Shown here piece by piece: positions 5,409 to 24,353 of a stretch of DNA of 24,423 nt. Position 1 is the stretch's first letter, and the number at the start of each line of letters is the position of its first letter. The stretch is from a virus. Location: IMG/VR virus record IMGVR_UViG_3300044682_000126, positions 1 through 24,423 of that record; one strand, given 5' to 3'. The translations under genes and the position numbers were made by a program. The notes under the pieces are model-generated. The model searched no databases, had not been told where the DNA came from, and saw nothing but the letters and a program-made list of their open reading frames with translations.

Positions 5409-7049
5409 GTGACCACACCTGTTCTGTACGGCAGCCAGCGCCCGCGCTTCTGGACGTGCCCGCCGCGGCACACCGGACCGGTTGAGGGCTGCCGTACCTG
5501 CGCGCTGATTTCCGGGGACTACGAACCGGGAACCGGCTGCGGCGACGCGCAGGCACTCGACGTGCTCGCGTGGGCCAGGGACGCTGCCGGGTACGAACCT
5601 GACCCGTGGCAGGAATGGGTGCTGACCAACGCGCTCGGCACCGAGCCGGATTCGACCTGGGCGGCGTCCGACGTCGGGCTGATCGTGTCTCGCCAGAATG
5701 GTAAGGGTACCGTCCTGGAGATCCGGGAGCTCGGCGGCCTGTTCGTGCTGGGCGAAGAACTGATTATTCACACCTCGCACGAGTTCAAGACCAGCGCTGA
5801 GCATTTCCGCCGGGTGAAGGCGGTCTTCGACGACCATGCCGCGCTGCGCAAGCGGGTGAAGCGGATCGCCGGCTCGCACGGCGAGGAAGCCATCGAGCTG
5901 TTTCCGCAGCCGACCCTGATCTTCGGGCCGGGCCGGAAGCAGATTACCCGCAGGGTAGCCGGACGGCTGCGTTTCCTGGCGCGGTCTAAGGGCTCCGGCC
6001 GTGGTTTCTCCTGTGACTGCCTGGTGTACGACGAGGCGATGATCCTGTCCGAGGACCAGGTGGCCGCGTCGCTGCCGACGATGTCCGCCCGCGCCAATCC
6101 GCAGATCTGGTACGCCGGGTCAGCCGGCAACGAGGACAGCTTCCAGTTCGCCGCCGTGCGCCAGCGGATCGTCCGCAACTCGAAGGACCTGTTCGGCGCC
6201 GAGTGGAGCATCGACCCGCATAACGACGCCTGCCCGCGTGACGAGCTGACGGGCCGCGAGACGAATTACTTCATCACCTGCACGAAGCACGACGACCGCG
6301 ACGACCCGCGCTCCTGGGCGAAGGCCAATCCCGGTTACGGGTACCGGATCAGCGAGAAGTTCACCCGGAACACCGAGATGGCGAACATGCCGCCGCAGAA
6401 GTTCGACATGGAGCGGCTGGCCGTCGGGAAGTGGCCGCAGCCGGAGGCGCCCTGGGCGGTGATCAGCGAGATTGCCTGGAACAAGCTGGCCGTCAGCCAG
6501 GAGAGCGCCGGCTTCCCGGTTCAGCCCATCGTGTTCGCGCTCGACATCGACGAAGACGGACGCAGCGCGACGATCAGCGCCGCCTGGGACCACCCGGGCA
6601 GCAAGCGCGTCGTCCTGGAAATCCCGAAGGGCTGCGCCCGGCAGGGCACCGACTGGGTCCTGGAGAAGGCCGACAAGCTGTACAAGAAGCGCCAGCCCAT
6701 CGGGATTGCCATTCCCAAGAGCGGGCCGGCCGCGGCGCTGATCCCGGGCGGGACGAAGCTGTGGCGCGAGCGGTGCATCGCGGTCGGCACCGCCGAAGAG
6801 GCCGCCGCGTTCGCCTGGCTGCTGCAGCAGGTCCGCAACGACAATCTCTGGCATTTCGGCCGGGAAGGCGCCCCTACCCTGTGGCACGCGATCGCCACGG
6901 CCGCTACCCGGGTCGTCGGGGACGGCGGCAAGGCCTGGTCACGGCGGGACAGTGAAAGCGACATCACCCCGGTGACCAGCGCTACCCTCGCCGCTTATGT
7001 TTTGGACAAATACCGGCGGAGTTACGACCTGATGGATTCGGTTGCCTGA
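5409..7049 (+). CDS. terL: Terminase large subunit
   Basis: 546 aa. The ATPase and nuclease of the DNA-packaging motor, which docks on the portal and fills the head. Walker A-like SRQNGKGT at 94-101, Walker B CLVYDEA at 204-210 with the catalytic Glu209, and a coupling-motif candidate AGSAG at 236-240. The RNase-H-like nuclease domain starts at ALDIDEDGRSA (377-387), with further acidic residues later. The N-terminus has a Cys group (17, 28, 31, 44) that could bind zinc. The length is normal. No small terminase is visible, so it may lie outside the window, be unrecognisable or be missing. The leaderless GTG start fits the promoter geometry. Confidence 0.95.
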   Translation: MTTPVLYGSQRPRFWTCPPRHTGPVEGCRTCALISGDYEPGTGCGDAQALDVLAWARDAAGYEPDPWQEWVLTNALGTEPDSTWAASDVGLIVSRQNGKGTVLEIRELGGLFVLGEELIIHTSHEFKTSAEHFRRVKAVFDDHAALRKRVKRIAGSHGEEAIELFPQPTLIFGPGRKQITRRVAGRLRFLARSKGSGRGFSCDCLVYDEAMILSEDQVAASLPTMSARANPQIWYAGSAGNEDSFQFAAVRQRIVRNSKDLFGAEWSIDPHNDACPRDELTGRETNYFITCTKHDDRDDPRSWAKANPGYGYRISEKFTRNTEMANMPPQKFDMERLAVGKWPQPEAPWAVISEIAWNKLAVSQESAGFPVQPIVFALDIDEDGRSATISAAWDHPGSKRVVLEIPKGCARQGTDWVLEKADKLYKKRQPIGIAIPKSGPAAALIPGGTKLWRERCIAVGTAEEAAAFAWLLQQVRNDNLWHFGREGAPTLWHAIATAATRVVGDGGKAWSRRDSESDITPVTSATLAAYVLDKYRRSYDLMDSVA

Positions 7050-7833: not shown

Positions 7834-8045
7834 TTCTTCTCCTCTGTTTCCGGGCTCAGAACTTTGAGGCCGAATCCGCGCGACAGCACGATGACAGGAA
7901 ATTCAACACCTAGAACTGCCTGTACCCGCAGTTGGATGTACGCCGCAGTTTCCGCGTCGATCTCAGCGTCTACGTGAACGGCAAGCCGGTCGCCGGGGCG
8001 CAGGGTCAGCCGTTCTACTTCGGTAATCTCGGGGAGTTCGCTCAC
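7830..8045 (-). CDS. 71-aa hypothetical protein
   Basis: Start GTG 8045 overlaps the stop of the transglycosylase gene (GTGA); longer readings of this frame run through that gene and are rejected. The protein (MSELPEITEVERLTLRPGDRL...) looks like a small beta-rich domain. The LRPGDRLAVHVD segment followed by a helix recalls short phage proteins of unknown role. It has a charged C-terminus and no membrane segment. It sits in the middle of the minus-strand cassette. Confidence 0.6.
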   Translation of the reverse strand: MSELPEITEVERLTLRPGDRLAVHVDAEIDAETAAYIQLRVQAVLGVEFPVIVLSRGFGLKVLSPETEEKK

Positions 8046-8746
8046 TGGCACACCCACGCGGAGAAGTTGTCCCCGGAGGCGGTGAACTTGGCGACGGCGT
8101 TGGCCGCGTTGACTTCCGGGTTCGTGAGCGAGCCGCCGAAGTCGGTGACCTGGCCGAGGATCTGCCAGATTCCCGTTGCGCCCGACGGATTGTAAGCGTC
8201 CGGGTTGAAGCCGCTCTCGCAGTCCGCGATCTGCACGGCCTGTGCTTCCGCGTACGCGGGGCCGCCGGCTCCGAGCCACAGCTGGCCGACCTGCGCGGCT
8301 GTGAGAACCCCGGAGTACGTCGCCGTCTGAACAGGTGCCTGCTGCGCACTGGCATCTGCGCTTCCCTCCCGGGCCGTTTCCGGTGGTGCCGCCGCGGGCA
8401 GGCGCCGCGAGCTTTCCTGCAGCTGCCTCTTCCGGAGGGCAGCCTGCTGTGCCTGGTAGGCAGCGTACGCGCGGGCCTGTTCTGCTTTTTCTTCCAGCGC
8501 GGCGAGGTGCGCGAGGTGCGCTTCGTGCCAGGCGTGCTCGGCCCGCAGTTTCGCGATCGCCCGGTCTTGCACGGTTGATGCCCACTGCGCGGGGGAAGCT
8601 GCCGTAACAGCTGGTTTCAGCACAGCTGCCTGGGCAGTACCCGCGAGGACCAGGCCGGAGCCGAGGACCAGGGCGAGGCACGCTGACAGCCCCGTCAGAA
8701 CTACCCGCGAGTATGCCGAAAGGGGTACGGAAACCCTGGTCAGCAT
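8042..8746 (-). CDS. Secreted lysozyme-like transglycosylase
   Basis: 234 aa. Signal peptide with hydrophobic core about 15-36 and a likely cleavage after AQA (38-40). A long Ala/Glu/Gln-rich coiled coil follows (about 52-112), then a linker. The C-terminal domain from about 165 reads VQIADCESGFNPDAYNPSGATGIWQIL, the SLT/Rpf-like lysozyme signature with catalytic Glu177. Cys176 and Cys233 could form a disulfide after export. It would cut peptidoglycan glycan strands from outside the membrane. This is the only wall-degrading enzyme recognised here, so it is the best endolysin candidate. The start is supported by aaggat upstream of the ATG. Confidence 0.8.
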   Translation of the reverse strand: MLTRVSVPLSAYSRVVLTGLSACLALVLGSGLVLAGTAQAAVLKPAVTAASPAQWASTVQDRAIAKLRAEHAWHEAHLAHLAALEEKAEQARAYAAYQAQQAALRKRQLQESSRRLPAAAPPETAREGSADASAQQAPVQTATYSGVLTAAQVGQLWLGAGGPAYAEAQAVQIADCESGFNPDAYNPSGATGIWQILGQVTDFGGSLTNPEVNAANAVAKFTASGDNFSAWVCQ

Positions 8747-9389: not shown

Positions 9390-11165
9390 GTGGGGTTCAT
9401 CGAGAACATCCGGGCATCCGCGTACGAAGAGCGGGTGATCGGCGGTGTCCCCTGGAAGCCGTGGGAAAACCCGTTCTGGCGGTTCGATACCGGCGGCCCG
9501 GTTCACCCGACGAGGCAGTTCTACGGCCCCCAGGAGGCGATGGGGCTTCCGGCTCTTTACGCCGGCGTCAAGCTCCTGGCTGACAACGCCGCCTCTCTTC
9601 CCTTGCGCGTGTACCAGAGCCTTGAATCGTCTACTGGCTTCGGCCCCGGTAAGCACCGGCTGTACGGCGGCCCGACCATTTTCGACCGGCCGTCGGTTAT
9701 CGGGACGTTTTTCGACTGGATGGCGCAGGCGATGGTGTCGGTGCTGCTCCAGGGAAACTGCTGGGGGTTCATCACCGGCAAGGACGGCTACGGCTTCCCG
9801 ACGGGGATCGAGTGGATTCCCCCGGAAGACGTCTACGTACTGGAACCGCAGGACCAGCAGACTGCCAACCCGCTGCGCGCCCGGGTGTTCGTCTTCGGCC
9901 GCGAGGTCCAGTGGTACGGGCCCGACTCCGAGCTCTTCCACGTCCGCGGCATCACGCTGCCCGGCCGGGTCGAAGCCATTTCGCCGCTGCGCGCGTTCGC
10001 CCTGACGATCCTGGCCGGCAACGAGGCCCAGCGGTACGGCACGAGCTGGTACGAAGCTGGCGGTTTCCCGCCCGGCACCTTCCAGAACGCTGAGATGGAG
10101 GTCAACGCTGCCCAGGCGGCCGAGATCCGCGCGTCCCTGGTGACCAGCCTCCGGCGCCGCGAGCCTCTGGTCTACGGCCGCGACTGGGACTACAAGCCGG
10201 TGACCGTGCCGCCGTCGGAAGCGCAGTTCATCGAGGCGATGCAGCTGAACGCGACCCAGATCGCCGCGATCCTCAACCTCCCGCCCGACCGGCTCGGCGG
10301 CACGCGCGGCGACTCGCTGACCTACGCGACGTCCGAGCAGTCCACGCTGCAGATCATCGAAGCGCTGCGACCGTGGCTGGTCCGGTTCGAGCAGAGTTTC
10401 TTCGACCTGCTGCCCAAGAACAGGTTCACCCGTTTCTACACCGACGCGCTGCTGAAGACCGACCTGGAAGCCCGGATGAACATCTTCCAGACGCAACGGA
10501 ACATCGGCATCCGGACGGCCGACGAGATCCGCGAAGAGCTCGACCTGGCTCCGCTGGCCAGCGGCGTCGGCGCCGAAGAGCTTCCCCTGACGACCATGAA
10601 CGCGATGGGCACCAGGGCCGGGGCCATCCCGAAGTCGTTCCTCAAGTCCGTCGTGCTGGAGATGGACGTTGCCACCGACCGGCTGATCAAGCTGGAGAAG
10701 ACCTACATCGCCCAGGGGAGGCTTCCGCAGGCAACTGCGGCTGCACCCGGGATGCCCGGCCAGGGGAGCGCGGGAGGCGCAGGCAGCGGAAAGCCAGGAT
10801 CAAGCAGCGGTCCCGGTTCCACTCCCGGCCAGGAGGCCGGCCCGGCGACGGCGCCTTCGGTAACCGGGCCTGTCCCGCCCGCCGGGACGGCGCCCATCGG
10901 CATGCCCAACGCTCCCCTGCCCCTCGCCCAGGACCCGGCGTCGTTCCTGGCGTCCTTGATCAGCGTGCAGCGGAACATGTCCTACGACTACGAGGACCGC
11001 GAAGCCGCCCGGCACATCTACGCGCGGATAGTCGAGCGCGCTCAGCAGATCGAGGCAGCCGAGCCGGAACCGTACGTACCGGACAGCCACTTGCTTGCCC
11101 CGTGGGTGCCGGGGCGCGACGACCTGCGCGAAGTAGTCCTTTCGGCGAACGGCCATAAGCGGTGA
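9390..11165 (+). CDS. Portal protein (HK97 family)
   Basis: 591 aa. Forms the dodecameric ring at the head vertex through which DNA passes. The N-terminal part (FYGPQEAMGLPALYAGVKLLADNAASLPLRVY) and the central LLQGNCWGFI, ELFHVRGI and LNLPPDRLGG motifs are typical of Phage_portal proteins. The core ends at about 430. A Gly/Ser/Pro-rich linker (about 450-515) leads to a helical C-terminal extension ending NGHKR, longer than a minimal portal. GTG 9390 is chosen, with gaaggg about 10 nt upstream. It follows terL after the minus-strand cassette and precedes the protease gene. Confidence 0.93.
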   Translation: MGFIENIRASAYEERVIGGVPWKPWENPFWRFDTGGPVHPTRQFYGPQEAMGLPALYAGVKLLADNAASLPLRVYQSLESSTGFGPGKHRLYGGPTIFDRPSVIGTFFDWMAQAMVSVLLQGNCWGFITGKDGYGFPTGIEWIPPEDVYVLEPQDQQTANPLRARVFVFGREVQWYGPDSELFHVRGITLPGRVEAISPLRAFALTILAGNEAQRYGTSWYEAGGFPPGTFQNAEMEVNAAQAAEIRASLVTSLRRREPLVYGRDWDYKPVTVPPSEAQFIEAMQLNATQIAAILNLPPDRLGGTRGDSLTYATSEQSTLQIIEALRPWLVRFEQSFFDLLPKNRFTRFYTDALLKTDLEARMNIFQTQRNIGIRTADEIREELDLAPLASGVGAEELPLTTMNAMGTRAGAIPKSFLKSVVLEMDVATDRLIKLEKTYIAQGRLPQATAAAPGMPGQGSAGGAGSGKPGSSSGPGSTPGQEAGPATAPSVTGPVPPAGTAPIGMPNAPLPLAQDPASFLASLISVQRNMSYDYEDREAARHIYARIVERAQQIEAAEPEPYVPDSHLLAPWVPGRDDLREVVLSANGHKR

Positions 11166-11249: not shown

Positions 11250-12632
11250 ATGGCAGTTCTGTCGAGCGCCGCACGGGATAACCTTCCGGACTCAGCTTTT
11301 GCCTACATCGAAAGCGGCGGCAAGAAGGTCAACGGGAAGACCGTTCCCGGCCGCCTGCGCCATTTCCCTGTTCACGATGCCGCCCACGTGCGGAACGCTC
11401 TCGCCCGCGCCGGCCAGGGCGCCCGTTTCGGTAAGGAAGCCATGCCAAAGATCCTCGCCGCGGCCAAGCGGCACGGTGTCGAGCACGACGAGGCCAGTTC
11501 CGGTACCGGCCGGTCCTTCGATTCCCTGTACCCCGAGGTGCGGTTCCTCGCCGACGTGCCGGAGATCCGCAGCATCGGCGACGGCCAGCCGCAGCACATC
11601 ACTGGGTACGCCGCTGCATTCGGGAAGCTGTCCCGGCGTCTCGGCGGGTTCGTCGAGCGGGTCATGCCGACCGCTTTCGAAGAAGCCCGCAGTGCCGGCT
11701 ACCCCGACGTCGTCTGCCGGTACAACCACAAAGACGACATGGTCCTCGGCACCACGGCGGCCGGCACGCTGTCGCTGGAGACCGACGAGCGCGGCCTGCA
11801 CTATGACGTCATCCCGCCGAACCACCGGGGCGACATTACCGAGCTGATCCAGCGCGGCGACGTCCGCTACAGCTCGTTCGCGTTCCGGTGCATGGAGCCC
11901 GGCACCGACGACGAATGGGGCGTCACCGACTACAACTACCCGATGCGGTCCCTGCACAATGTCGCCCTGCTGGACGTCGCGCCCGTGCTCGATCCCGCCT
12001 ACCGCGATACCTCGGTGGTCGCCCGGAACATGACCGGCGCCGTAGAGTCCCTCGCCATGTGGGTCGACGCCGAGCCCGCCGAGGTCCGCAACATGCTCGA
12101 AGCCGGGCAGGCGATGCGGTTCTTCAAGCGTGCCGGCCGGCCGTCTGCCCCGCAGTCTGAGTCTGTTCCCGAAGTCCGCGACAGCGAGATGCTCGACGAC
12201 CCGGCAGTCGCCCTGCGCACCTGGAGCTTCAAGGACGAGCCCGCCGGAGAGCCTGAGCAGCGCGAGCACACGGCTGACGAGTTCGCCGAGCACGTCGAAG
12301 AGTCCCGGGCGATGCACAATCACGAGACGATGTGCCGCAAGTGGGTAGGCGGTGAGCCGTGCGTGCTCGGCCAGGGTCACGACGGCGGCTGCCAGGGACG
12401 CTGCTGGGGCAGTAAGGACGGTATCCCCTGCTCGATGGCCGAGGGCCATGGCGGCGACCACGTGCCACACGCTTACGACGACGGCAACGGTCCCGGCCGG
12501 GGACGCCCCAAGTCGTTCCGCGACGGCGAGGGCACCGAAGACGCGTCGGGCGAGGAGAAGCGCACGCTTTCCGGTCCCGAGGCCCTCGCCGAGGTGTTCG
12601 CCATGCGGGACAAGCTCACCGTGATCGACTAA
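11250..12632 (+). CDS. DUF6582 / HK97 prohead protease (S78) fusion with Cys/His tail
   Basis: 460 aa in three parts. Residues 5-80 (LPDSAFAYIESGGKK...RHFPVHDAAHVRNALARAGQ...) match DUF6582, common in actinobacteria and their phages. Residues 95-260 are a prohead protease that trims scaffold and capsid precursors during maturation: a His in YNH160KDDMVLGTT and a Ser in RYSSFAF (208-209). Residues 362-404 form a Cys/His cluster (C362, C371, H377, C381, C385, C394, H400, H404) with two related units, PCVLGQGHDGGC and PCSMAEGHGGDH. No separate scaffold gene is seen, so the acidic C-terminal region could also serve in assembly. The Shine-Dalgarno aaggag is at 11233-11238. Confidence 0.88.
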   Translation: MAVLSSAARDNLPDSAFAYIESGGKKVNGKTVPGRLRHFPVHDAAHVRNALARAGQGARFGKEAMPKILAAAKRHGVEHDEASSGTGRSFDSLYPEVRFLADVPEIRSIGDGQPQHITGYAAAFGKLSRRLGGFVERVMPTAFEEARSAGYPDVVCRYNHKDDMVLGTTAAGTLSLETDERGLHYDVIPPNHRGDITELIQRGDVRYSSFAFRCMEPGTDDEWGVTDYNYPMRSLHNVALLDVAPVLDPAYRDTSVVARNMTGAVESLAMWVDAEPAEVRNMLEAGQAMRFFKRAGRPSAPQSESVPEVRDSEMLDDPAVALRTWSFKDEPAGEPEQREHTADEFAEHVEESRAMHNHETMCRKWVGGEPCVLGQGHDGGCQGRCWGSKDGIPCSMAEGHGGDHVPHAYDDGNGPGRGRPKSFRDGEGTEDASGEEKRTLSGPEALAEVFAMRDKLTVID

Positions 12633-13142: not shown

Positions 13143-14510
13143 ATGGCGTCCGATCTCGCAAAGAGCCTCCACGAGCAGGAGCAGGGCGTCTGGGCGAAAA
13201 TCCAGTCTCTCGCCCAGGCTGCCGCGACTGAGAAGCGCAATTTTACCGACGACGAGCAGCGTTCGTTCGATTCGATGCACGAGGAGCTCGACGGCGTCGA
13301 CAAGCGCCTCAAGCAGATCCTCGAAGACGAGAAGCGCTCTGCTGCGACCGACGAGATGTACGGCCAGCTGGAGCAGCGGACGGCCAACCCCGGCGCGCGG
13401 CGCCAGGACAACCCGTTCGAAGCCGAGATGCGGGCCTTTGCCCGGGGCGAGAAGCGGACGCTCGACATCGTGTCGTCCGAATCCCGGATCATGCAGCGGC
13501 TGGCGACGACCCGGCCCATCAGCCCGTACGAAGTCCGTGTGCTGACCGACGCTTACATGGCGCCCGGCTCGTTCACGAACCAGACCAACGCCGGCATTGT
13601 CCCGATCGACTTCTACGACCAGCTTCTGTCGTACCTGATCGAAGTTTCGGGTGTTATGCAGACCGGCCCCACGGTGCTGAACACGGCGGGCGGCGAGCCG
13701 ATTCAGGTTCCCATCGTCAACCAGCACACCGGCCTCACTTCGGCTGGCATCCAGGTGGGCGTCTCGGCCGCGCAGTCTGCGACCCTGGCTACCGCTGACC
13801 CGGTTTTCGCGCAGAAGACGCTGACCGCCAACAAGTTCGGCATCCTGATCCAGGTAGCGCGCGAACTGATCGACGACTCCGGTGTCAACCTGCTCGGCTA
13901 CCTGGCGATGTCCGCCGGCCGCGCGATCGGCAACGCGCTCGGCTCCTCGCTGATCAACGGTGGCAATGGCATCTCCGGCAACATCCTGTCGGCGCCTGTC
14001 GCGGTCACGGGTGCCTCCGGCGTTTCCGGCGCGGCGTCTGCGTCCAACCAGGTTGAGGGCGGCCCGTCCTACTCCAACCTGATCGACATGGAGTACAGCG
14101 TCATCGCGCCGTACCGCCAGTCGCGGTCCTGCTACTGGCTCGCGGCCGACAAGACCCTGGCGGCTCTCCGCAAGCTGACCGACCAGATCGGCCGGCCCCT
14201 GTGGGAGCCTTCCACGGTCCTCGGCTCGCCCGACCTGCTGCTCGGCAAGCCCCTGGTGGCCGACCCGTTCATGCCGGGCATCGGCACGCCGTCCATCACC
14301 TCGATCGCCTTCGGCGACTTCTCGCAGTACTTCGTCCGGATGGTCGGCGGAGTGCGGTTCGAGCGGTCGGACGACTTTGCTTTCGGTTCTGACCTGGTGT
14401 CCTTCCGGGCCATCATCCGGGCCGACGGCCAGCTGATGAACCCGCCCGTCTCGGTTACCCCGTCCCTCAAGGGCCAGCCGATCGTCCTGTTCCAGGGCGG
14501 CGCGAGCTAA
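13143..14510 (+). CDS. Major capsid protein (HK97 fold)
   Basis: 455 aa. Builds the icosahedral shell. Residues 1-80 form a charged coiled coil (KSLHEQEQGVWAKIQSL...DEEQRSFDSMHEELDGVDKRL) like the HK97 delta domain, which is normally removed by the prohead protease; a cut somewhere in 85-125 is likely. The rest shows the HK97 MCP pattern: AGIVPIDFYDQLLSYL, an E-loop region rich in Ala/Gly/Ser, FGILIQVARELIDDS, and a C-terminal P/A-domain (FGDFSQYFVRMVGGVRFERSDDFAF). It stands between two terminators and has its own leader with the hairpin described above. Confidence 0.93.
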   Translation: MASDLAKSLHEQEQGVWAKIQSLAQAAATEKRNFTDDEQRSFDSMHEELDGVDKRLKQILEDEKRSAATDEMYGQLEQRTANPGARRQDNPFEAEMRAFARGEKRTLDIVSSESRIMQRLATTRPISPYEVRVLTDAYMAPGSFTNQTNAGIVPIDFYDQLLSYLIEVSGVMQTGPTVLNTAGGEPIQVPIVNQHTGLTSAGIQVGVSAAQSATLATADPVFAQKTLTANKFGILIQVARELIDDSGVNLLGYLAMSAGRAIGNALGSSLINGGNGISGNILSAPVAVTGASGVSGAASASNQVEGGPSYSNLIDMEYSVIAPYRQSRSCYWLAADKTLAALRKLTDQIGRPLWEPSTVLGSPDLLLGKPLVADPFMPGIGTPSITSIAFGDFSQYFVRMVGGVRFERSDDFAFGSDLVSFRAIIRADGQLMNPPVSVTPSLKGQPIVLFQGGAS

Positions 14511-14580: not shown

Positions 14581-14766
14581 ATGAACAGCTGGCGGAAATC
14601 ACGTTACAGTACCTGCTACGGAGCCTGCGTGGAGGTAGGCAGCCGGTCAGGCAGGTCGTTTATCGAGGTCCGGGATACTGTTAACCGGAAAGGCCCCGTC
14701 CTCGAAGTGCCGGCCGGCGCCTGGCGCGAGTTCACTGCCCGGGTTAAGGACGGGGTGCCGGCGTGA
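14581..14766 (+). CDS. DUF397 family protein
   Basis: 61 aa with the complete DUF397 pattern: WRKSRYS (4-10), C12...CVEV (16-19), VRDT (30-33), GPVLEVP and W48 near the end. In actinobacterial chromosomes DUF397 proteins are usually encoded beside XRE-type regulators, in pairs linked to development and proposed to act as toxin/antitoxin-like modules. No XRE gene is visible here. The Shine-Dalgarno gaggaga precedes the ATG. The stop overlaps the next start (GTGA). A phage copy right behind the capsid gene suggests capture of a host regulatory partner. Confidence 0.85.
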   Translation: MNSWRKSRYSTCYGACVEVGSRSGRSFIEVRDTVNRKGPVLEVPAGAWREFTARVKDGVPA

Positions 14767-16053: not shown

Positions 16054-16297
16054 CCATCTGGCCAGGGGCTCACTGGTAGCCGATTCTTCGATGCACGGCG
16101 GCAACACAGTGAGTGTCGTGCCGCCCTTCAACCCGCCGGGGACCGAGTCTGAGGCTACTCAGGGGATTCCGACGCACAGCCGGCCGGAACCTGACATCGG
16201 CCCGAACAACGACAGCCAGCTGCATGCCAGGGTCAGCGGCAGCGGCGAGTACCCGATGACCGAACGGACCTGGAAGAAGGTGACCCCCAATGGCTAA
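16034..16297 (+). CDS. 87-aa hypothetical protein
   Basis: Begins MAVQDLSHLARGSLVADSSMHGG. Polar and Pro/Gly-rich, probably extended. gaggagg upstream supports the ATG. It overlaps the next gene by 8 nt. It shares composition (His, Asn, Gly, Pro) with the following protein; both may be small virion components. No family is recognised. Confidence 0.6.
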   Translation: MAVQDLSHLARGSLVADSSMHGGNTVSVVPPFNPPGTESEATQGIPTHSRPEPDIGPNNDSQLHARVSGSGEYPMTERTWKKVTPNG

Positions 16298-16559
16298 CTG
16301 GGGTCCTGTCGAGCATCCCGTCGAGCATTTCAGCGGGCGCGCGGTCGGCGAAGAGGGCGCTGTCGTCCAGCCGCACGTGAACGGCGGGAACGCGCCGCAC
16401 CACGCGGTGGACTACAACGCTACCGACGGGCGGCACGGCCGGGAATCCGGTATGGCGCCGTGGGACTCGGTCGACGTCAACTCCGGTACGGCGAGCGACA
16501 CGGACTGGAGCAAGACCGGCTCGTTCCCCGACGGACCCGGGAGCTGGCGGCAGACCTAG
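16290..16559 (+). CDS. 89-aa hypothetical protein
   Basis: Begins MANWGPVEHPVEHFSGRAVGEEG. Rich in His, Gly, Asp and Trp, without hydrophobic segments. gaagaaggtg upstream acts as ribosome site. It ends just before the promoter of the membrane module. No family is recognised. Confidence 0.6.
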   Translation: MANWGPVEHPVEHFSGRAVGEEGAVVQPHVNGGNAPHHAVDYNATDGRHGRESGMAPWDSVDVNSGTASDTDWSKTGSFPDGPGSWRQT

Positions 16560-16580: not shown

Positions 16581-16949
16581 ATGAAAAAGCTCGCAGCAGC
16601 CCTGGCCCTCGCCGGACTGGGGCTTGCTGTCTGGGCGGTCATCCTGCACCCGTGGGGCGCGGCGACCGCCATAGGGGTGCACCCGTACCCGGCGGGCACG
16701 CCCTGGGAATACCAGATGTGGTCCGGGATAATTCCGGCTCTGACCATTCTTACGCTGTTCGGGTCGCTCGGCGGTGCCTACCACCTGCATAACTGTCACA
16801 AGGACGGCTGCTGGCGGATCGGGAAGCACCGGATCGCCGGAACGCCGTGGTGCGACCGGCATAAAACTGAGGCTAAACCGTCTGTCAGTACTGAAGACCT
16901 TCTTGCCTCGATTCTGGCCGAGCTGGTGCGGCAGGGCCTGGGTCAGTGA
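16581..16949 (+). CDS. Two-helix membrane protein with Cys/His motif
   Basis: 122 aa. TM1 about 5-25 (AAALALAGLGLAVWAVIL), TM2 about 48-68 (SGIIPALTILTLFGSLGGAYHL). Directly after TM2 comes HLHNCHKDGCWRIGKHRIAGTPWCDRHK, with three Cys and five His in about 28 residues, a likely metal site at the membrane surface. The C-terminal tail is helical. It overlaps the channel gene by 4 nt, so the two are probably co-translated. It could be a metal-sensing or accessory subunit; this is inference from position. Confidence 0.65.
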   Translation: MKKLAAALALAGLGLAVWAVILHPWGAATAIGVHPYPAGTPWEYQMWSGIIPALTILTLFGSLGGAYHLHNCHKDGCWRIGKHRIAGTPWCDRHKTEAKPSVSTEDLLASILAELVRQGLGQ

Positions 16950-17314
16950 ACGTGCACCACCGCCGGATGTTCTGGCTGCTCGGATCGGTGGCAGCGCTGG
17001 TCGTCGGCCTCGGCGCGCTGTACGGGTATACCGACCCGGTCGTCGGGACCTGGGGCGGGATCTATTTCGCGATCGTCACGGTGACAACGGTCGGCTACGG
17101 TGACATCATCCCGCGCGGCTGGGAAGACCACATCGTCGCGCTGGCGATCATGATCCTGATCATCCCGCTGTGGACCGGCGTGTTCTCTCTGCTGACCACC
17201 GGGTTCATTACCCAGGAAGCCGAGAAACGGCACCAGGAGCAGCAGGAGCACGCCGACCGGCGGCACGAGGAACTCAAGCAGCACATTTCCGGCAGCACGG
17301 GAACGACGAGCTAG
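16946..17314 (+). CDS. KcsA-like two-TM potassium channel
   Basis: 122 aa. TM1 about 9-28, pore helix about 35-46, selectivity filter TVTTVGYGD (45-53) with the canonical TVGYGD, and TM2 about 62-86. This is the full core of an Ion_trans_2 potassium channel, which would work as a tetramer and pass potassium across the host membrane. The C-terminal 89-113 segment (EAEKRHQEQQEHADRRHEELKQ) is a likely tetramerising coiled coil; its many His could make it pH- or metal-sensitive. It begins in GTGA overlap with the preceding gene. The size is close to minimal viral potassium channels. Confidence 0.9.
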   Translation: MNVHHRRMFWLLGSVAALVVGLGALYGYTDPVVGTWGGIYFAIVTVTTVGYGDIIPRGWEDHIVALAIMILIIPLWTGVFSLLTTGFITQEAEKRHQEQQEHADRRHEELKQHISGSTGTTS

Positions 17315-17330
17315 GTGCCAGGTGGCACTT
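17313..17330. repeat. Palindrome copy C, AGGTGCCAGGTGGCACTT
   Basis: GTGCCA-GG-TGGCAC lies between the channel stop and the transporter start; the GTG start (17322) is inside it. Related to copies at 1629 and 7092. A protein or RNA fold here could control transporter translation. Confidence 0.5.
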
Positions 17331-17777
17331 AGGCGAACCGGGCTGCTGCGCCCGGCTGTGTTCGGCCTCGCCGACGGTACGATGTCGATGCTCGGCGTCC
17401 TGCTCTACCTGCTCCACCACCAGAACCTGATCTTCCCGGCCGCGCTCATGGGCGGGATCAGCGCAGCGGTGTCCATGGCCGGCGGTGAATGGCTGTCCGA
17501 TTCCGACAACGGCTTCGGGGCGTCCGCCGTGATGGGACTGGCGACCGGAGCGGGCGCGATCCTCCCGGCTGTCCCGTTCGCCCTGGCCCGCGGTGCCACT
17601 GCGCTGACAGCTACCGTTGTCATCTGCTTGCTGATCGGCGTCGTTGTCGGGGGCATGCGCGGCCAGGCCGGCAGGCGGCACTCCAAGGTGTTCGAGATGG
17701 CCGTCACCCTCGGGCTGCTCGCCGTCATCTTCGGCGTTGTTCTCGTCTGCTCTGTCCTGGTACCGAATCCGGGTTAG
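17322..17777 (+). CDS. Minimal VIT1/CCC1-like metal transporter
   Basis: 151 aa with four or five membrane helices. FGLADGTMSMLGVLLYLL (14-31) matches the first VIT1 helix with its metal-pathway Asp18. GGISAAVSMAGGEWLSDSD (44-62) matches the second, with Met52 and Glu56. GASAVMGLATGAGAILPAVPFAL (66-88) matches the third, and two more helices follow. VIT1/CCC1 proteins move iron(II) or manganese(II) in exchange for protons. The usual cytosolic metal-binding helices between helix 2 and 3 are absent, so this is a shortened version. It lies 7 nt after the channel gene. The start codon choice is uncertain. Confidence 0.75.
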   Translation: MALRRTGLLRPAVFGLADGTMSMLGVLLYLLHHQNLIFPAALMGGISAAVSMAGGEWLSDSDNGFGASAVMGLATGAGAILPAVPFALARGATALTATVVICLLIGVVVGGMRGQAGRRHSKVFEMAVTLGLLAVIFGVVLVCSVLVPNPG

Positions 17778-17786: not shown

Positions 17787-18002
17787 GTGGTCAACACGCG
17801 GAAAATGGCCCGGCGCCTGGCGATGCACGGGGACACCTGCACCCAGGTTCGCCAAGGGCTCGGGCGGCTTGCTCCCTGCCAGTGCGGGAAGTCCCTGGCC
17901 TGGGTGTGCGGCTGCGGAGACGTCATTATCGTGCGCGGCGGGGCCTGCGGCGAGTGGCAGGCCGATGCGGCGTCGCGGAACGCGCTGGTGGTTTACCGGT
18001 GA
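17787..18002 (+). CDS. Cys-rich hypothetical protein
   Basis: 71 aa. Residues 31-43 read CQCGKSLAWVCGC, a CxC...CxC knuckle, with Cys at 18 and 54. Probably zinc-binding. No Shine-Dalgarno; leaderless start. Stop overlaps the next start (GTGA). No family is recognised. Confidence 0.6.
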   Translation: MVNTRKMARRLAMHGDTCTQVRQGLGRLAPCQCGKSLAWVCGCGDVIIVRGGACGEWQADAASRNALVVYR

Positions 18003-18273: not shown

Positions 18274-18321
18274 ATGCCGGTTATCGTAATGCCTTACCAG
18301 GGGGTGAGCCCGCACCTGTGA
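18274..18321 (+). CDS. 15-aa leader peptide of the sugar operon
   Basis: MPVIVMPYQGVSPHL, leaderless, stop overlapping the glycosyltransferase start (GTGA). The peptide may have no function beyond bringing ribosomes to the next start, which has only a loose Shine-Dalgarno (gggggtgag). Alternatively the transcript simply has a 44-nt leader. Confidence 0.35.
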   Translation: MPVIVMPYQGVSPHL

Positions 18322-19394
18322 AGATCCTCGCCAGCCACGACGGAGGTTCCGGGTGCGCCTTAGCCTGGTACCGGATGCTAGTCCCGCTGACCGCGGTGAA
18401 CGAGCTCGCGCCAAACGTTAGTGTCACCTTCCGCTCGGGGGGCCCGAAACTAATGCGGCACCCGCACCCGGTGGTGAAGATCACCGATGCGAACGACGCG
18501 GACCTGATCGTGTCCCAGCGTGCCAGCGACTACAACGGCCTGGGTCTCTGGCGGCGCTGGGGCAGTACTCCCGGCCTGCGCACTGTATATGAGAACGACG
18601 ACGACGTCTTCAGCATCACCGCGGAGAACTTCGCCGCCTGGCAGACCTACAAAGACGGCACCGAGGTCCGTGAGGCCACCTTCCGCTACTTCCGCACGGC
18701 GAACCTGGTGACCACGACGACCCCGCACCTGGGCGACCGCTTCCGGGAGATGCTGGAGAACCGGGTGACCGTCGAGGTGCTGCCTAACTACATCCCGGCC
18801 TGGGTGCTAGATTTGCCGCGAGACCCATTCGGCAGAAGGTTGCGGATCGGCTGGGCCGGCGGCGCTTCGCACGCGCGGGACATCCACACGGCGACGCCGG
18901 CGGTCCGCCGGTTCATGAAGCGGTTCCCGGACTGGGACCTGTACCTCGGCGGCGTCGACTACCGGCCCTCGTTCAGGTGCCCGCCCGAGCGGTCGTTCTT
19001 CACCGAGTGGATACACGTCACCGACGACCCGCAGCTCTACTACCGCTCGATCGACTTCGACATCGGGATCTGCCCGCTGTTGTCCACCCAGTTCAGCCGT
19101 TCGAAATCCTGGGTCAAGGCGCTGGAGTACTTCGCCCGCGGCATCCCCGTCGTGGCAAGCGACGTCGAGCCTTACCGGCGGTTCATCGACCATGGCGCCA
19201 ACGGATTTCTCGCTAAGTCCGATCATGAGTGGCTGAAGTACCTGTCCCTGCTCGCCTCCGACGAACAGCTGCGTCTCAAGATGGGCGAGGCGGCTAAAGC
19301 CAAGGCACGCGAGAACACTATCGAGGCGCATTATGCTGAGTGGGTCAACGCGTACAAGATGCTGTTCCCGATCGGATGGGAATTCCAGGGATGA
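18318..19394 (+). CDS. GT-B glycosyltransferase (GT4-like)
   Basis: 358 aa. The first half has an unusual GxGCALAWYRMLVPL start, as in some phage and capsule GT4-like enzymes. The second half begins RLRIGWAGGASHARDI and ends in the donor-binding region DIGICPLLSTQFSRSKSWVKALEYFARGIPVVASDVEPYRRFI-DHGANGFLAK, with the Glu-rich GT4 pattern (KALEYFA...PVVASD). It would transfer a sugar from a nucleotide donor to a protein or glycan acceptor in the cytoplasm. First enzyme of the operon; overlaps the next gene by 4 nt. Donor and acceptor unknown. Confidence 0.85.
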   Translation: MKILASHDGGSGCALAWYRMLVPLTAVNELAPNVSVTFRSGGPKLMRHPHPVVKITDANDADLIVSQRASDYNGLGLWRRWGSTPGLRTVYENDDDVFSITAENFAAWQTYKDGTEVREATFRYFRTANLVTTTTPHLGDRFREMLENRVTVEVLPNYIPAWVLDLPRDPFGRRLRIGWAGGASHARDIHTATPAVRRFMKRFPDWDLYLGGVDYRPSFRCPPERSFFTEWIHVTDDPQLYYRSIDFDIGICPLLSTQFSRSKSWVKALEYFARGIPVVASDVEPYRRFIDHGANGFLAKSDHEWLKYLSLLASDEQLRLKMGEAAKAKARENTIEAHYAEWVNAYKMLFPIGWEFQG

Positions 19395-19555
19395 CTGCTC
19401 AGAACATCGAGGAAATCAGCCAGCTGACCGACAACCTCTACAGCTTTTACCGGAACGCCCGGCTGTCGCAGTTCAGCGAGAGGCAAGCGATAGCCCTGAC
19501 CGCGAAGTGGCTGGAGGTCATGACCGGGCACAGCAGGGAAGCGGCTAGTACGTGA
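19391..19555 (+). CDS. 54-aa helical hypothetical protein
   Basis: ATG in the overlap ATGA with the glycosyltransferase stop; the longer frame from 19340 lies inside that gene. MTAQNIEEISQLTDNLYSFYRNARLSQFSERQAIALTAKWLEVMTGHS reads as two amphipathic helices. Similar short proteins occur in actinophage operons. Overlaps the next start by 4 nt. Confidence 0.55.
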   Translation: MTAQNIEEISQLTDNLYSFYRNARLSQFSERQAIALTAKWLEVMTGHSREAAST

Positions 19556-19935
19556 ACTGGAACCCGGGGCACTCGCCGCACAGTGCGTACGTCAGGGATG
19601 CCTTGCTAGAGTGCCGCGAACGGGGCTGCCGGGCTCCGGAGCTCGCAGCACTTGCCCGACAGCTGTCCGATCAGGAGCACCAGGTTCTAGAGATGCTGGA
19701 AAAGAAAGGCGCGCAGATGAAGCCGACTCAGGCGCTGTGGTGCGAGCAGGGCGGGCACTCGTTCAGCGAGAAGGACCCGGACGTTCAGGTACTCACGATT
19801 TCGGGTCGCGGGCCGGACGGGCAGCCGGTAGAGGAGTCGCGTACCAGCTGCGGGGAGTGCGCTGCGCTGGCCAAGACCCGGCTCGGCAAGGCGCGCAACG
19901 CCCAGGCTTCCCAGCTTCCGGCCGGCGAGGCGTAA
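19552..19935 (+). CDS. Hypothetical protein with Cys/His metal motif
   Basis: 127 aa. N-terminal helical half (YVRDALLECRERGCRAPELAALARQLSDQEHQVLEMLEKKG) and a C-terminal domain with LWCEQGGHSFSEKDP...SRTSCGECAALAK: Cys, His and a CxxC that could form one zinc site. An internal ATG at 19717 after aaagaaagg could start the zinc domain alone. No family is recognised; its place in the sugar operon is not explained. Confidence 0.6.
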   Translation: MNWNPGHSPHSAYVRDALLECRERGCRAPELAALARQLSDQEHQVLEMLEKKGAQMKPTQALWCEQGGHSFSEKDPDVQVLTISGRGPDGQPVEESRTSCGECAALAKTRLGKARNAQASQLPAGEA

Positions 19936-20895
19936 ATGAGGTACCTGGTAACCGGCGGCGCCGGCTTTCTCGGCAGCAGTCTCGTCAGGCGGCTCGTCGC
20001 CGAAGGGCACGAGGTTGTTGTTCTCGACGATATGTCCCGGGGTAAGATGCGGCGCCTGGAGGGGGTTAACTGCGAGGTCCGGCAAGGCGACGTGCGCAAT
20101 AAGTACGGAGTGGCCTACGCGATGTCCGGTTGCGACGCTGTCGTGCACATGGCTTATCTTCAGGGCACGCAGACGTTCTACGCCGAGCCCCGGCAGGTTC
20201 TGGACGTCGCTGTACGCGGCATGCTAGCTGTCCTGGATGCCTGTCAGGCAACGGGCTGCGCGCAGATGCTCCTGGTGTCCTCGTCCGAGGCGTACCAGGT
20301 CGCCAGCGTCGTGCCGACGCCCGAGGACATCCCGCTGACCGTTCCCGATGTAACCAATCCCCGGTACTCCTACGGCGGCGGCAAAATCGCCTGTGAGCTC
20401 ATGGCTTTGGCCTGGCAGCGCACCGGGGTTCTCGACCGGCTCGTCATCGCCCGGCCGCACAACATCTACGGCCCCGACATGGGCTGGGAGCACGTCATCC
20501 CCGAGTTCTGCGACCGGATGAACCAGCTCGTCCAGGCCCGGCACGAAGGCCCGATCCCGTTCCCGATCCAGGGCACCGGCCAGGAAACCCGGTCGTTCTG
20601 CTATATCGGCGACTGCACCGAGCAGCTTGCAGTGCTGTGCCGGCCGGACACGCCGGACGGGATCTACCATGTCGGCACTATGGACGAGCGGACGATCGCC
20701 GACGTCGCCCACGGGGTTGCCGCGAGCTACGGCCGGGAAATCAAGGTAATCCCCGGGACGCTGCCGAAGGGATCGCCGCCGCGCCGCCTGCCCGACACCG
20801 CGAAGATCCGGGCGCTGCGCACGGTATGGCGGGATACTTCGTTCGAGGACGGCCTGGCTAGGACTGTCGAATGGTACCGCGCCCATGCCAGGTGA
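19936..20895 (+). CDS. NAD-dependent sugar epimerase/dehydratase (extended SDR)
   Basis: 319 aa. Rossmann motif TGGAGFLG (6-13), acidic DD (31-32) after strand 2 for NAD, catalytic SSSEAY (115-120) and YSYGGGK (Y146, K150). RPHNIYGPDMGWEHVIPEF is a signature of a sugar-nucleotide SDR branch often found next to C-methyltransferases and cupin isomerases in polysaccharide clusters. It would epimerise or oxidise/reduce a nucleotide-linked sugar in the cytosol. ATG directly follows the upstream stop. It lacks the clear TDE motif of 4,6-dehydratases, so epimerase is the better guess. Confidence 0.9.
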   Translation: MRYLVTGGAGFLGSSLVRRLVAEGHEVVVLDDMSRGKMRRLEGVNCEVRQGDVRNKYGVAYAMSGCDAVVHMAYLQGTQTFYAEPRQVLDVAVRGMLAVLDACQATGCAQMLLVSSSEAYQVASVVPTPEDIPLTVPDVTNPRYSYGGGKIACELMALAWQRTGVLDRLVIARPHNIYGPDMGWEHVIPEFCDRMNQLVQARHEGPIPFPIQGTGQETRSFCYIGDCTEQLAVLCRPDTPDGIYHVGTMDERTIADVAHGVAASYGREIKVIPGTLPKGSPPRRLPDTAKIRALRTVWRDTSFEDGLARTVEWYRAHAR

Positions 20896-22018
20896 GGTCC
20901 GGACGTGCGGCGGCTGCCGTTCTCCCTACCTGCTGCTTCCGCTGTTCGACATGGGCGTGCAGCCGCTCGCGGAAGGCCGGTCGGAGCACAGCTACCCGCT
21001 CTGCCTGGTTGAGTGCGAGAACTGCGGGCTTGTCCAGCTGTCCTATGTCGTCGATCCGGCCGAGGTATTCCAGCCAGATCACCCCTATTCGACGGGCAAC
21101 TCGGCGGCGCTCCGGAAGCACTACGAAGACCTGGCCCGGCGGACTGCCGTTGCCCTGCCCCTGGGGCCCGGCGACCTGGCTGTGGATATCGGGGCCAACG
21201 ACGGCACCCTGCTCAGTTTTTACCCGGAAGACCTGAAGCGGGTCGCTGTCGAGCCGACGGACCAGGGCAAGAAGATCCCGCCCGGGATTACCTGGGAGAA
21301 AGGGTTCTTCACGGCGCAGCTCGCCGAGGGTATGCGCGAGGGGTACGGTCCGGCCCGGGTAATCACGGCTTGCAACGTTCTCGCGCACGTCCCCGATCCG
21401 CACGACTTCCTGGAGGGCGTGTCCGGGCTTCTAGCCGACGACGGGGTGTTCGTCACCGAGAACCACGACCTTGCCAGCATCTTCGACGGCCTTCAGATCG
21501 ACACGATTTACCATGAGCACCTGCGCTACTATTCCGACGCGTCGCGGTCCCTGCTGCCGGAGAGGCACGGCCTGCGTGTTGTCAGCTCAGAGCAGGTACC
21601 GACGCACGGCGGGTCGTTCAGGATCACGGCTCGCAAGCAGCACGGTGATTTTTCCCGGCGGGCCAAGGCTGCGGCGACCGCGCTGCGCGGCATGCTGTGG
21701 AAGATCTCTTTCGAGCAGCGGCAGCAGGTCTACGGCATCGGCGCCGCCACCCGCGCTACCCCGCTGATTCACTACGCCGGCATCGGGGCCTTTCTCACCT
21801 GCGTCTGCGAGGTAGCCGGCAGCGGCAAAATCGGCACGAACATGCCCGGCACGCTGATCCCGGTGGTTGCCGAGTCCGAGCTGATCCGGGACCAGCCGCC
21901 GTACGCCCTGCTGTTCTCCTGGCACATGAAAGACGCCATCGTCCCGAAGCTGCGCGCGGCCGGCTACAAGGGGAAGTTCATCGTGCCGCTGCCAGAGCCG
22001 AAGGTGCTAGATGACTGA
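20885..22018 (+). CDS. NDP-hexose C-methyltransferase (TylC3/NovU type)
   Basis: 377 aa with three domains. N-terminal zinc site C8, C11, C44, C47. SAM-binding core VDIGANDGTLL (100-110). TENHDLASIFDGLQIDTIYHEHLRYYS (191-217) carries the YHEHxxYYS signature whose His is catalytic in this family, and HGGSFR (241-246) follows. C-terminal domain has YGIGAATRATPLIHYAGI (283-300). Known members add a methyl group to carbon 3 of 4-keto deoxysugars in antibiotics and cell-surface glycans. It overlaps the epimerase gene by 11 nt, so these enzymes probably act in one pathway. Confidence 0.9.
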   Translation: MPGEVRTCGGCRSPYLLLPLFDMGVQPLAEGRSEHSYPLCLVECENCGLVQLSYVVDPAEVFQPDHPYSTGNSAALRKHYEDLARRTAVALPLGPGDLAVDIGANDGTLLSFYPEDLKRVAVEPTDQGKKIPPGITWEKGFFTAQLAEGMREGYGPARVITACNVLAHVPDPHDFLEGVSGLLADDGVFVTENHDLASIFDGLQIDTIYHEHLRYYSDASRSLLPERHGLRVVSSEQVPTHGGSFRITARKQHGDFSRRAKAAATALRGMLWKISFEQRQQVYGIGAATRATPLIHYAGIGAFLTCVCEVAGSGKIGTNMPGTLIPVVAESELIRDQPPYALLFSWHMKDAIVPKLRAAGYKGKFIVPLPEPKVLDD

Positions 22019-22376
22019 CCGTTTCGAAGACGACCGGGGCGTGATCCAGGACCTGCTGACCGAGCAGATCGACTCCGTCACCGAGATCTTCACCAAGAAG
22101 GGCGCTGTCCGGGGCAATCACACGCATAACGAGACAGTGCAGTGGACCTACGTGATATCGGGCAAGCTCTGGGTGGTCCGGCGTATGTCCGGAGGACTTC
22201 CGGTCGCCAGCCGGTGTGATGCGGGCATTTTGATCTGCGAGGAGCCCGGTGTCGCACATGCCTGGAGGGCACTGGAAGACACGTACGTACTCGTTTTCAC
22301 CCGCGGTCCCCGGTCGGGGGCGAACTACGAGGACGACGTGCAGCGGCTGCCGGAAAATGAGAAGCTGATCCCGTGA
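22011..22376 (+). CDS. Cupin nucleotide-sugar isomerase/epimerase
   Basis: 121 aa, single cupin barrel. FEDDRGVIQDLL opens as in dTDP-4-keto sugar 3,5-epimerases and WxcM/FdtA-type 3,4-ketoisomerases. RGNHTH (34-39) and Q44WTYVISGKLWVV follow, with VAHAW (81-85) at the second metal/catalytic site. It would change the stereochemistry or keto position of the sugar made by the neighbouring enzymes. Start overlaps the methyltransferase stop by 8 nt (ATGACTGA). Which of the two reactions it performs cannot be told. Confidence 0.8.
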   Translation: MTDRFEDDRGVIQDLLTEQIDSVTEIFTKKGAVRGNHTHNETVQWTYVISGKLWVVRRMSGGLPVASRCDAGILICEEPGVAHAWRALEDTYVLVFTRGPRSGANYEDDVQRLPENEKLIP

Positions 22377-23005
22377 CGGCGACCTGGGACATCCTGATCA
22401 CGTCGATCCCGCACCGGCATCAGAAGCTGTGCCTGCTGCTAGACGAGCTGGACCGGCAGGTGAAGACCGGGGTCGGGGTGATCCTGTACCGGGACGACCT
22501 GGAGCTTTCTTACGGCGGCAAGACCCAGGCTCTTGTCGAGGCTTCAGCAGCTGACTACGTATGCTGTATTGACGACGACGATATGATTGCCCCGGATTAC
22601 GTGGACAAAATCACGGATGCCCTCGCTTCCGATCCCGATTACGTCGGATTCCTGGTCCGCTGGACGAAAGACGGGAACCCGCAGCGGAAGGTAATTCACT
22701 CCCTGGCCTGCGGCGGCTGGCGCGATCACGCTGACCGCCTCGAACGGGATATTACGCAGTTCAACCCGGTCCGCCGCGTACTTGCCCTGCACGGTACCTG
22801 GGAAGGCGGCTGGGAAGCCGAGCGCCGCTGGAGCAGCCAGGTCCGGGCCGCCGAAAGCGTTGCAGACGAAGTGTTCCTCAGCGAAGAGCTCTACTGGTAC
22901 CGGGAAACGACGCACGATACTTTCCAGAGCCAGCGCCGCCCGACGGGGCACATGCCGGAACTGCCGTCGTATCCGTGGCTGAGGCAGATAGGACCGTACG
23001 CATGA
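22373..23005 (+). CDS. GT-A glycosyltransferase (GT2-like) 1
   Basis: 210 aa. ILITSIPHRHQKLCLLLDEL opens the Rossmann-like GT-A fold. CCIDDDDMIAPDYVDKI carries the metal/nucleotide-sugar DXD motif (66-70). A later Trp/Glu-rich segment with SEELYWYRETTHDT probably holds the base and acceptor site. Cytosolic, without membrane helices. GTG overlaps the cupin stop by 4 nt. Confidence 0.8.
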   Translation: MTATWDILITSIPHRHQKLCLLLDELDRQVKTGVGVILYRDDLELSYGGKTQALVEASAADYVCCIDDDDMIAPDYVDKITDALASDPDYVGFLVRWTKDGNPQRKVIHSLACGGWRDHADRLERDITQFNPVRRVLALHGTWEGGWEAERRWSSQVRAAESVADEVFLSEELYWYRETTHDTFQSQRRPTGHMPELPSYPWLRQIGPYA

Positions 23006-23724
23006 AAGACCTGCTCCTCGCCGTACCCAGCCGCGGCCGGCCGCAGAACATCGCCCGGCTCCGCGACGCCATGAGAGAGACGTGCACCGGGGACACGCAC
23101 TTGCGTGTCGGGATTGACCAGAACGACCCGGCGCTGGAGCAGTACCCAGACCATGTGATTTACGTAGTGCGAGATAACTTGCGCAAAGTGACCGCATGGG
23201 TGAACGAGCTGACGGTGCTCCGGGCTGGTGACTACCGGGCACTCGGCACAGTCGGAGACGACAACGTGTTCCGTACTCCCGGCTGGGATACGCAGATCAT
23301 GGAAGCGCTGGAGAAGACTCCGTTCGCATTCGGGAACGACCAGTACCCATCACGCCAGCCGGGCACGCTGTGCTGCCATGTCTTCATGCGCAGCGAGGTC
23401 GTGCAGACTCTCGGCTACTTCGGGCCGCCGTCGATCGCGCACATGTACGTGGACGTCGCCTGGATGGCCTGGGGCACCGCCTGCGGCATTACCTACCTGC
23501 ACGACGTCCTGATCCCGCACCTGCACTACACCGTCGGCGCCCCGCACGACGAAACCTATGCGAATTCTTACGCCGGGACCGGGGCCGACCTGCAAGCCTG
23601 GCACGCCTACTGCCGCAGCGGCCAGCTGAACACCGACATCCGCGCGCTCGGCGGCACCGAGTTCACCCCGGACGCCCTGGCGCAGTTCAACCGGAACCTC
23701 TTCATACCGGAGCGATGGGGATGA
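23002..23724 (+). CDS. GT-A glycosyltransferase-like protein 2
   Basis: 240 aa. LLLAVPSRGRPQNIARLRDAM is a typical start of phage GT-A proteins. TVGDDNVFRTPGWD (84-97) supplies the DXD-like acidic group (GDDN). HMYVDVAWMAWGTACGITYLHDVLIPHLHYTVG has the late DVAW...H pattern seen in GT2-like enzymes. Overlaps both neighbours by 4 nt. Weaker match than the other two; could be an inactive partner. Confidence 0.7.
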   Translation: MKDLLLAVPSRGRPQNIARLRDAMRETCTGDTHLRVGIDQNDPALEQYPDHVIYVVRDNLRKVTAWVNELTVLRAGDYRALGTVGDDNVFRTPGWDTQIMEALEKTPFAFGNDQYPSRQPGTLCCHVFMRSEVVQTLGYFGPPSIAHMYVDVAWMAWGTACGITYLHDVLIPHLHYTVGAPHDETYANSYAGTGADLQAWHAYCRSGQLNTDIRALGGTEFTPDALAQFNRNLFIPERWG

Positions 23725-24353
23725 CGCTTCCCCTAGTGTCCGTGATTACCCCGGCCTGGCAGCGCTACGAGCGGCTGCTGAACCGCTGCATTGCCAGCGT
23801 GCAGGCACAGACCTATCAGCGCGTCGAGCACATTGTCGTCGGCGACGGGCCCGATCCCGGCCTGGCGGACCTGATGGGGCAGCTTATGTCCAGTTCAGCA
23901 ATTTACCACCCGGTCCGGTTTTTCCAGCTGGCGGAGCACGATCCGGAGCGGCACTGGGGGCACTATGCGCGGCTGCGGGGGATTGAAGAGTCAGCCGGCG
24001 AGTACATCGCCTACGTCGACGACGACGATGCCCTGCGGCCCGAGCACGTCCGCCTGCTGGCAGAAGCACTGACCCGGAATCCGGACGCTGCCTGGGCGTA
24101 CTCGGTCATGGCTTCGCACAGCCAGCACGGAACGGTAGAAATCGGCTATCAGGGGTACCCGGCCGAAGGGCAGATCGGCACCCCGATGATCATGCACAGG
24201 CGCGAAATCCTGGAGCACGGCACCTGGGGCCCGGCGTCGTCCGTCGAGGACTGGAACCTGGTGAAGCGCTGGCTAGACGCCGGGCAGCAGTACGTGCACG
24301 TTCCCGAAGTCACCGTCGATGTCTGGCCCTCGGTCTACCATGAGCACTTTTGA
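23721..24353 (+). CDS. GT-A glycosyltransferase (GT2) 3
   Basis: 210 aa. The clearest GT2 member: PLVSVITPAWQRYERLLNRCIASVQAQTYQRVEHIVVGDGP (4-44), then AYVDDDDALRPEHV (97-110) with the DXD site, and a late SSVEDWNLVKRWL with the general-base ED. It would transfer sugar from an NDP donor. Last gene of the operon; a new leaderless promoter follows at once. Only 210 aa, so it lacks any membrane tail. Confidence 0.88.
   Translation: MTLPLVSVITPAWQRYERLLNRCIASVQAQTYQRVEHIVVGDGPDPGLADLMGQLMSSSAIYHPVRFFQLAEHDPERHWGHYARLRGIEESAGEYIAYVDDDDALRPEHVRLLAEALTRNPDAAWAYSVMASHSQHGTVEIGYQGYPAEGQIGTPMIMHRREILEHGTWGPASSVEDWNLVKRWLDAGQQYVHVPEVTVDVWPSVYHEHF

Follow-up and report, generated by a model that had tools for sequence, protein, structure and literature searches.

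A gene for a two-helix Cys/His protein (denoted CH), a minimal potassium channel gene (K) and, frequently, a gene for a small VIT1/CCC1-like metal transporter (VIT) form a conserved unit that recurs in many distantly related uncultured phages. We characterised this unit in IMG/VR virus record IMGVR_UViG_3300044682_000126 (positions 1-24,423), a stretch of 24,423 bases, probably from a phage of soil actinobacteria, that is referred to here as the window. The three ORFs that a first-pass annotation of the sequence had placed at 16581-17777 are recovered at exactly these coordinates, co-directional on the plus strand: CH (16581..16949, 122 aa), the channel (16946..17314, 122 aa) and VIT (17322..17777, 151 aa). 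CH and K overlap by four bases, with the GTG start of K lying over the CH stop (GTGA), and a 7-base gap separates K from VIT, which also starts with GTG. The assignment of the region to a phage rather than to a host chromosome is borne out by the virus record itself and by the virion genes on the plus strand of the same contig, namely, those for the terminase large subunit (5409..7049; phrog_9, 3.6e-59), portal (9390..11165; phrog_12, 2e-58) and head maturation protease (11250..12632; phrog_80, 7.3e-34), all identified in PHROGs, and the major capsid protein (13143..14510; PF05065 in Pfam, 5.7e-48). Directly upstream of CH lies a conserved phage gene of family F38 (16290..16559, plus strand) that is common to the window and its closest relatives, the loci L007, L091 and L094. 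A leaderless promoter that had been proposed for the unit is not corroborated: a promoter scan gave no sigma-70-like promoter at the proposed place, the TATGCT/ATG spacing is missing in the three relatives, and in these the CH start abuts the stop codon of the upstream gene.

Recurrence was assessed by single-protein scans over 2.9 million viral contigs, keeping in mind that IMG/VR contigs are fragments. The alignment-based scans yielded 80 CH, 74 K and 17 VIT loci, which were clustered by shared DNA. Thirteen of the resulting clusters, including the window, contain CH, K and VIT, 22 contain CH and K, and five contain CH and VIT, these counts varying with search depth and with the threshold on shared 80-mers. 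Thus, the co-occurrence implied by the annotation of a single module is observed elsewhere, with all three genes together in at least 12 other DNA clusters. When the channel alone was used for the search (27 clusters with E <= 6e-12, with L114, which is cut at the contig end, left out), CH was adjacent to K in 23 of the 26 assessable clusters, the exceptions being L102, L103 and L109, where K occurs in another setting without CH beside it. In the syntenic relative L007, all three genes occupy the same place, with 82, 62 and 74% identity for CH, K and VIT, respectively. The usual order is VIT-CH-K, the genes being co-directional and CH and K overlapping by a few bases; in the window and L007, the order is CH-K-VIT. 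VIT is missing from the near relatives L091 and L094, and therefore CH-K is the core of the unit and VIT an optional member. A possible fourth member is the gene for a small Cys-rich protein that follows VIT in the window (17787..18002, plus strand, 71 aa); its only Pfam match, to Metallothio_Euk, is below the threshold (0.012), and a protein similar by eye is encoded after the CH-K pair in L094 (8614-8823).

CH is a sizeable family, with about 80 or more viral loci, that has no entry in Pfam or PHROGs and no member in the named-phage collection searched. We detected no match to it in Pfam, PHROGs or PDB, none in 50,697 named phages by tblastn with three different CH members as queries, and none in a fold search against PDB and BFVD. 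Across an alignment of 63 homologues, C72, C77, C91, Y44 and S48 are invariant and H94 is conserved in at least 90% of the sequences, so that the motif reads C72-x4-C77 ... C91-x2-H94, a set of the CCCH metal-ligand type. The AF2 model (pLDDT 91) consists of two long helices (residues 2-22 and 42-69) and a small C-terminal beta hairpin around the Cys and His residues, in line with the initial description of a two-helix Cys/His protein. We read CH as a putative membrane-anchored, zinc-finger-like protein that probably binds zinc, judging from the conserved residues and the model. In L113 (7704-8360), an apparent fusion of CH and K was considered and discarded: the DNA shows a frameshift or deletion within CH, and the other frame restores a CH-like tail that ends at the K start.

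Among cellular genomes, a pattern scan of GTDB did not find CH; a profile search gave hits in one and four genomes, respectively, of 299 from the Streptacidiphilus family and 397 from its phylum. In one genome of this family (Streptomycetaceae), CH belongs to an integrated phage-like element, upstream of terminase-, portal- and capsid-like genes. The CH element in this family is also plasmid-like, with possible SpdB2-type transfer proteins, and occurs three times in one genome (L186, 20,000 bases, and L179-L181). An element of Streptacidiphilus carbonis NBRC 100919, NZ_BBPM01000016, encodes a VIT relative (62%) with an Rv2525c-like hydrolase gene as its neighbour. From the CH element and the VIT relative, it follows that the hosts of the module family are at least partly Streptomycetaceae, a statement that holds for the module family as a whole. 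Within the phage structural region, the window also carries a DUF397 gene (14581-14766; PF04149, 1.6e-15); genes of this type are typical of actinomycete chromosomes.

The channel is a minimal 2TM/1P protein that matches PF07885 (Ion_trans_2) well above the cut-off (4.7e-9; 36.5 vs 22.5 bits), shows pore matches to KcsA, KCNK and KCNQ, and contains the TVGYGD filter, as expected of the canonical potassium channel reported in the first-pass annotation; the position of KcsA Glu71 is occupied by Val. The filter is not a constant feature of the family. T/S-VGYGD is kept in 31 of the 42 phage channels analysed and lost in the remaining 11, where degenerate forms such as TVGC-D, TVGC-N, TDGC-D, TAGC-D, TEG-AC, TDG-AD and TSGNSP are seen; homologues with a destroyed filter include those of L018 (8318-8617), L032 (8264-8602), L013 (8366-8656), L009 (6495-7064), L016, L027 and others. 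In nine of the 11, a Cys in the pore helix, where KcsA has W68, is paired with a Cys in the filter, which in eight of these nine is at the Y78 position; neither Cys of the pair is found in any of the 31 channels with a canonical filter. All 11, and none of the canonical channels, have Gly at the Glu71 position. The Cys pair makes structural sense because W68 and Y78 touch each other in KcsA.

Both types of channel are under purifying selection, with omega of 0.12-0.47 for the variants vs 0.25-0.42 for canonical pairs. On a tree built without the Cys, Gly and filter columns, the filter change arises at least four times, an estimate limited by the shortness of the proteins and by recombination. 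A single origin of the degenerate filters was rejected, the AU test disfavouring one clade (p 0.005), on the few columns (65) in the tree; instead of being lost repeatedly, the filter may have been changed by recombination of a short pore segment. Across independent tree pairs, the association between the Cys pair and filter loss has the same direction in three to four pairs, too few for significance. Because about one member in four has lost the filter while purifying selection persists, potassium selectivity appears to be dispensable in part of the family, with the scaffold and the link to CH kept; by the same argument, what is maintained would be the pore architecture and not potassium selectivity as such. 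An extension of this idea that we consider possible but doubtful is that CH and the 2TM protein constitute a phage-specific two-part pore system in which potassium selectivity is optional. In several lineages, the Cys pair would have taken the place of the aromatic cuff (W68-Y78 in KcsA) and, along with the Gly at position Glu71 and the shortening of the filter by one residue, would have produced a non-potassium pore of a new type that would set late membrane conductance.

The third gene product matches PF01988 (1.2e-9; 38.8 bits vs a cut-off of 28.1), and its AF2 model (pLDDT 92) has the five-helix VIT fold, with VIT1 6iu4 as the best PDB match (prob 1.00, TMq 0.67), which upholds its designation as a VIT1/CCC1-like transporter. 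It aligns to residues 11-66 and 143-216 of EgVIT1 (6iu3), that is, TM1-2 and TM3-5; the jump from 66 to 143 corresponds to the cytoplasmic metal-binding domain between TM2 and TM3, in place of which there is a short linker. Among 28 VIT homologues, Asp18 in TM1 is conserved in at least 90% and Met52 in TM2 is invariant. Their counterparts in the 6iu3 chain are positions 22 and 59, which we take to be the EgVIT1 transport-path residues D43 and M80. Directly after VIT, L160 (8423-8842) and L165 (8432-8887) contain genes that, assigned by position, are most likely the two PF04120 (low-affinity iron permease) matches.

We compared gene maps of 79 clusters, with genes called by a simple codon-bias caller written for this analysis. 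In approximately 23 clusters, the module is located near head-tail genes, including those for a major tail protein, the head-tail adaptor (phrog_442) and the tail terminator (phrog_17840), the last making up 8 of the 72 downstream genes; in eight, it precedes the terminase, and in six, the window among them, it lies between capsid-linked and glycan genes. An endolysin or related hydrolase is encoded at most four genes downstream in 9 of the 79 clusters (L003, L004, L017, L044, L046, L051, L099, L161 and L165). An endolysin or Rv2525c-like hydrolase gene directly follows CH in L004, L046 and L051 and K in L017, and in L099, the K stop overlaps the start of a GH25 endolysin; in the window, there is no endolysin beside the module. 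The downstream neighbours are co-directional with the module in 74 of 79 cases. With its constant composition at changing places in the late genome, the module looks like a functional cassette. The glycan genes of the window begin with a gene for a glycosyltransferase-like protein (18318..19394, plus strand), a function assigned from sequence only, with an 83% identical homologue in the same place in L007; the region as a whole (18318-24353) encodes apparent glycosyltransferases, a sugar epimerase, a methyltransferase and a cupin and is kept beside the channel module in L007 and L094. Elsewhere in the window, a minus-strand block (7315-8746) contains a weak transglycosylase match and a gene for a small membrane-type protein; a small protein that resembles the latter by eye is encoded in L013 next to an NlpC/P60-like gene, immediately before CH-K. 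The phrog_19005 protein encoded at 2890-3909 (minus strand) has relatives (family F22) whose genes lie close to the module in several further phages.

What is new is the combination and the variants; the individual parts of the module are all known or almost so. Like the window channel, Kcv is encoded by a virus (Chlorella virus) and is a minimal 2TM/1P channel, about 100 aa long, with a canonical filter. However, Kcv acts on entry from the virion membrane, whereas the phage gene belongs to the late region of a tailed phage and is coupled to CH, and many of its relatives lack the filter. To our knowledge, tailed phages have no virion membrane; given also the location of the genes in late structural and lysis regions, the depolarisation on entry that had been suggested by analogy with Kcv is unlikely. 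The viral potassium channels compared previously all keep TxxTxGF/YG (PMC3369850). The phage channel shares with KcsA and other bacterial Ion_trans_2 channels the pore helix, TVGYGD and two TM helices, and differs from KcsA in its short termini, the Val at the Glu71 position, the phage genetic setting and the presence of the Cys/Gly pore variant in its family. Potassium channel-like genes of the Ion_trans_2 type are present in named phages (Phabba, Myrna, BillNye, Aeromonas LAh_6/8/9, Acinetobacter ME3 and phi-pp2, the last annotated as such in PMC3468402) and have been annotated in viruses of Atacama soil (PMC8269230); the proteins of the named phages are distant, with 27-44% identity over short stretches to the L104 channel, and the three CH queries found no match in the same collection. 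The window VIT resembles EgVIT1 in its five TM helices and the conserved Asp and Met and differs in its small size and short linker. Giant viruses carry VIT1 homologues (PMC7162819), but these are viruses of eukaryotes, and we found no link to CH or a potassium channel there. Our literature search found no study of a phage potassium channel with lysis or a holin, or of a phage with VIT, as such a module, and no description of the CH family, the CH-K(-VIT) unit, a phage VIT lacking the metal-binding domain, or the Cys/Gly pore variants; nor did it find a paper describing the pairing of a potassium channel with an iron/manganese transporter in a phage, which agrees with the earlier view that this is not an established system. 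Overall, the earlier interpretation survives with respect to the phage module, its co-occurrence and the lack of a paper on the pairing, and is unsupported with respect to the leaderless promoter and entry depolarisation.

Because the module recurs beside endolysins or at head-tail boundaries, we favour a late membrane role. Specifically, we propose, tentatively and at somewhat less than even chances, that this is a late-expressed module of actinobacterial phages that changes the ion conductance of the host membrane and is plausibly tied to lysis or superinfection exclusion. The proteins would be made with the late genes and enter the host cytoplasmic membrane. The core would be CH, with two TM helices and a cytosolic zinc-finger-like domain, translationally coupled to the minimal channel; the latter would form a tetrameric pore, with CH as its likely contact and its gating or assembly partner. 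As a frequent extra member, the Fe/Mn transporter lacking the metal-binding domain would act as a divalent metal/H+ exchanger. Membrane potential might thereby be lowered or clamped at about the time of lysis, or for as long as other phages can still attack the infected cell, to the presumed benefit of the resident phage. Lysis timing is a candidate use because of the endolysin adjacency and the K/endolysin overlap, and superinfection exclusion because of the moron-like insertion among morphogenesis genes. These are the two leading uses, with homeostasis next, and we favour lysis timing. Against the lysis-linked reading, an endolysin is confirmed within four genes in only 9 of the 79 clusters and is not beside the window module; genes for homeostasis or superinfection exclusion could likewise be expected in the late region. 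VIT, absent from near relatives, is not an obligate part of the module.

Superinfection exclusion as the principal function, with a moron-like cassette rendering the infected cell or lysogen resistant to other phages via a lowered potential or a membrane altered for DNA entry, is a real but rather doubtful possibility. Small membrane exclusion proteins, such as HK97 gp15, are carried at the same place between the head-tail adaptor and tail terminator genes where the module is frequently inserted, the same gene set occupies several unrelated positions, as a mobile cassette would, and CH is found in the integrated element of the Streptomycetaceae genome. However, several copies of the module lie inside lysis cassettes, nothing points to lysogenic expression or to regulation of its own, and the scan gave no conserved promoter for the module alone. 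Alternatively, the module could play an auxiliary metabolic role, keeping potassium and iron/manganese fit for late expression, DNA packaging or stress survival. The Asp and Met that VIT shares with the EgVIT1 transport path and the two iron permease matches, in L160 and L165, are compatible with this function, as is the finding that infection by phage WC1 alters host metal genes and represses a host VIT gene (PMC10986025). Nevertheless, we regard it as unlikely: repeated loss of the filter is hard to square with a need for potassium transport, CH is not among the known homeostasis proteins, and VIT is missing in most CH+K loci.

Improbable, in our estimate, is a scenario in which the phage subunits co-assemble with, or poison, a host KcsA-type channel, with CH as the adaptor and the dead-filter subunits as dominant negatives. 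The pore scaffold and C-terminal coil are kept where some lineages have lost the filter, and Streptomycetaceae, a family that has KcsA, harbour relatives of VIT and CH, but a perfect canonical filter is retained in most of the phage channels and identity to KcsA is low. Finally, single genes of the module have cellular homologues, but an accidental neighbourhood, or a host chromosome miscalled as viral, is extremely improbable given the virion genes on the contig, the 12 other three-gene clusters, the same gene order among homologues in unrelated phages, and dN/dS of 0.16-0.40 between the window and L007, well below 1.

Phage potassium channels have been noted singly in annotations and, as far as we could find, never given a function. 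With its apparently translationally coupled CH partner, an optional metal transporter, a position that recurs next to tail or endolysin genes, and natural variants whose filter is destroyed, the module turns such channels into a testable system, and raises the question of whether a true ion channel controls phage lysis or exclusion, and whether potassium selectivity is needed for it.
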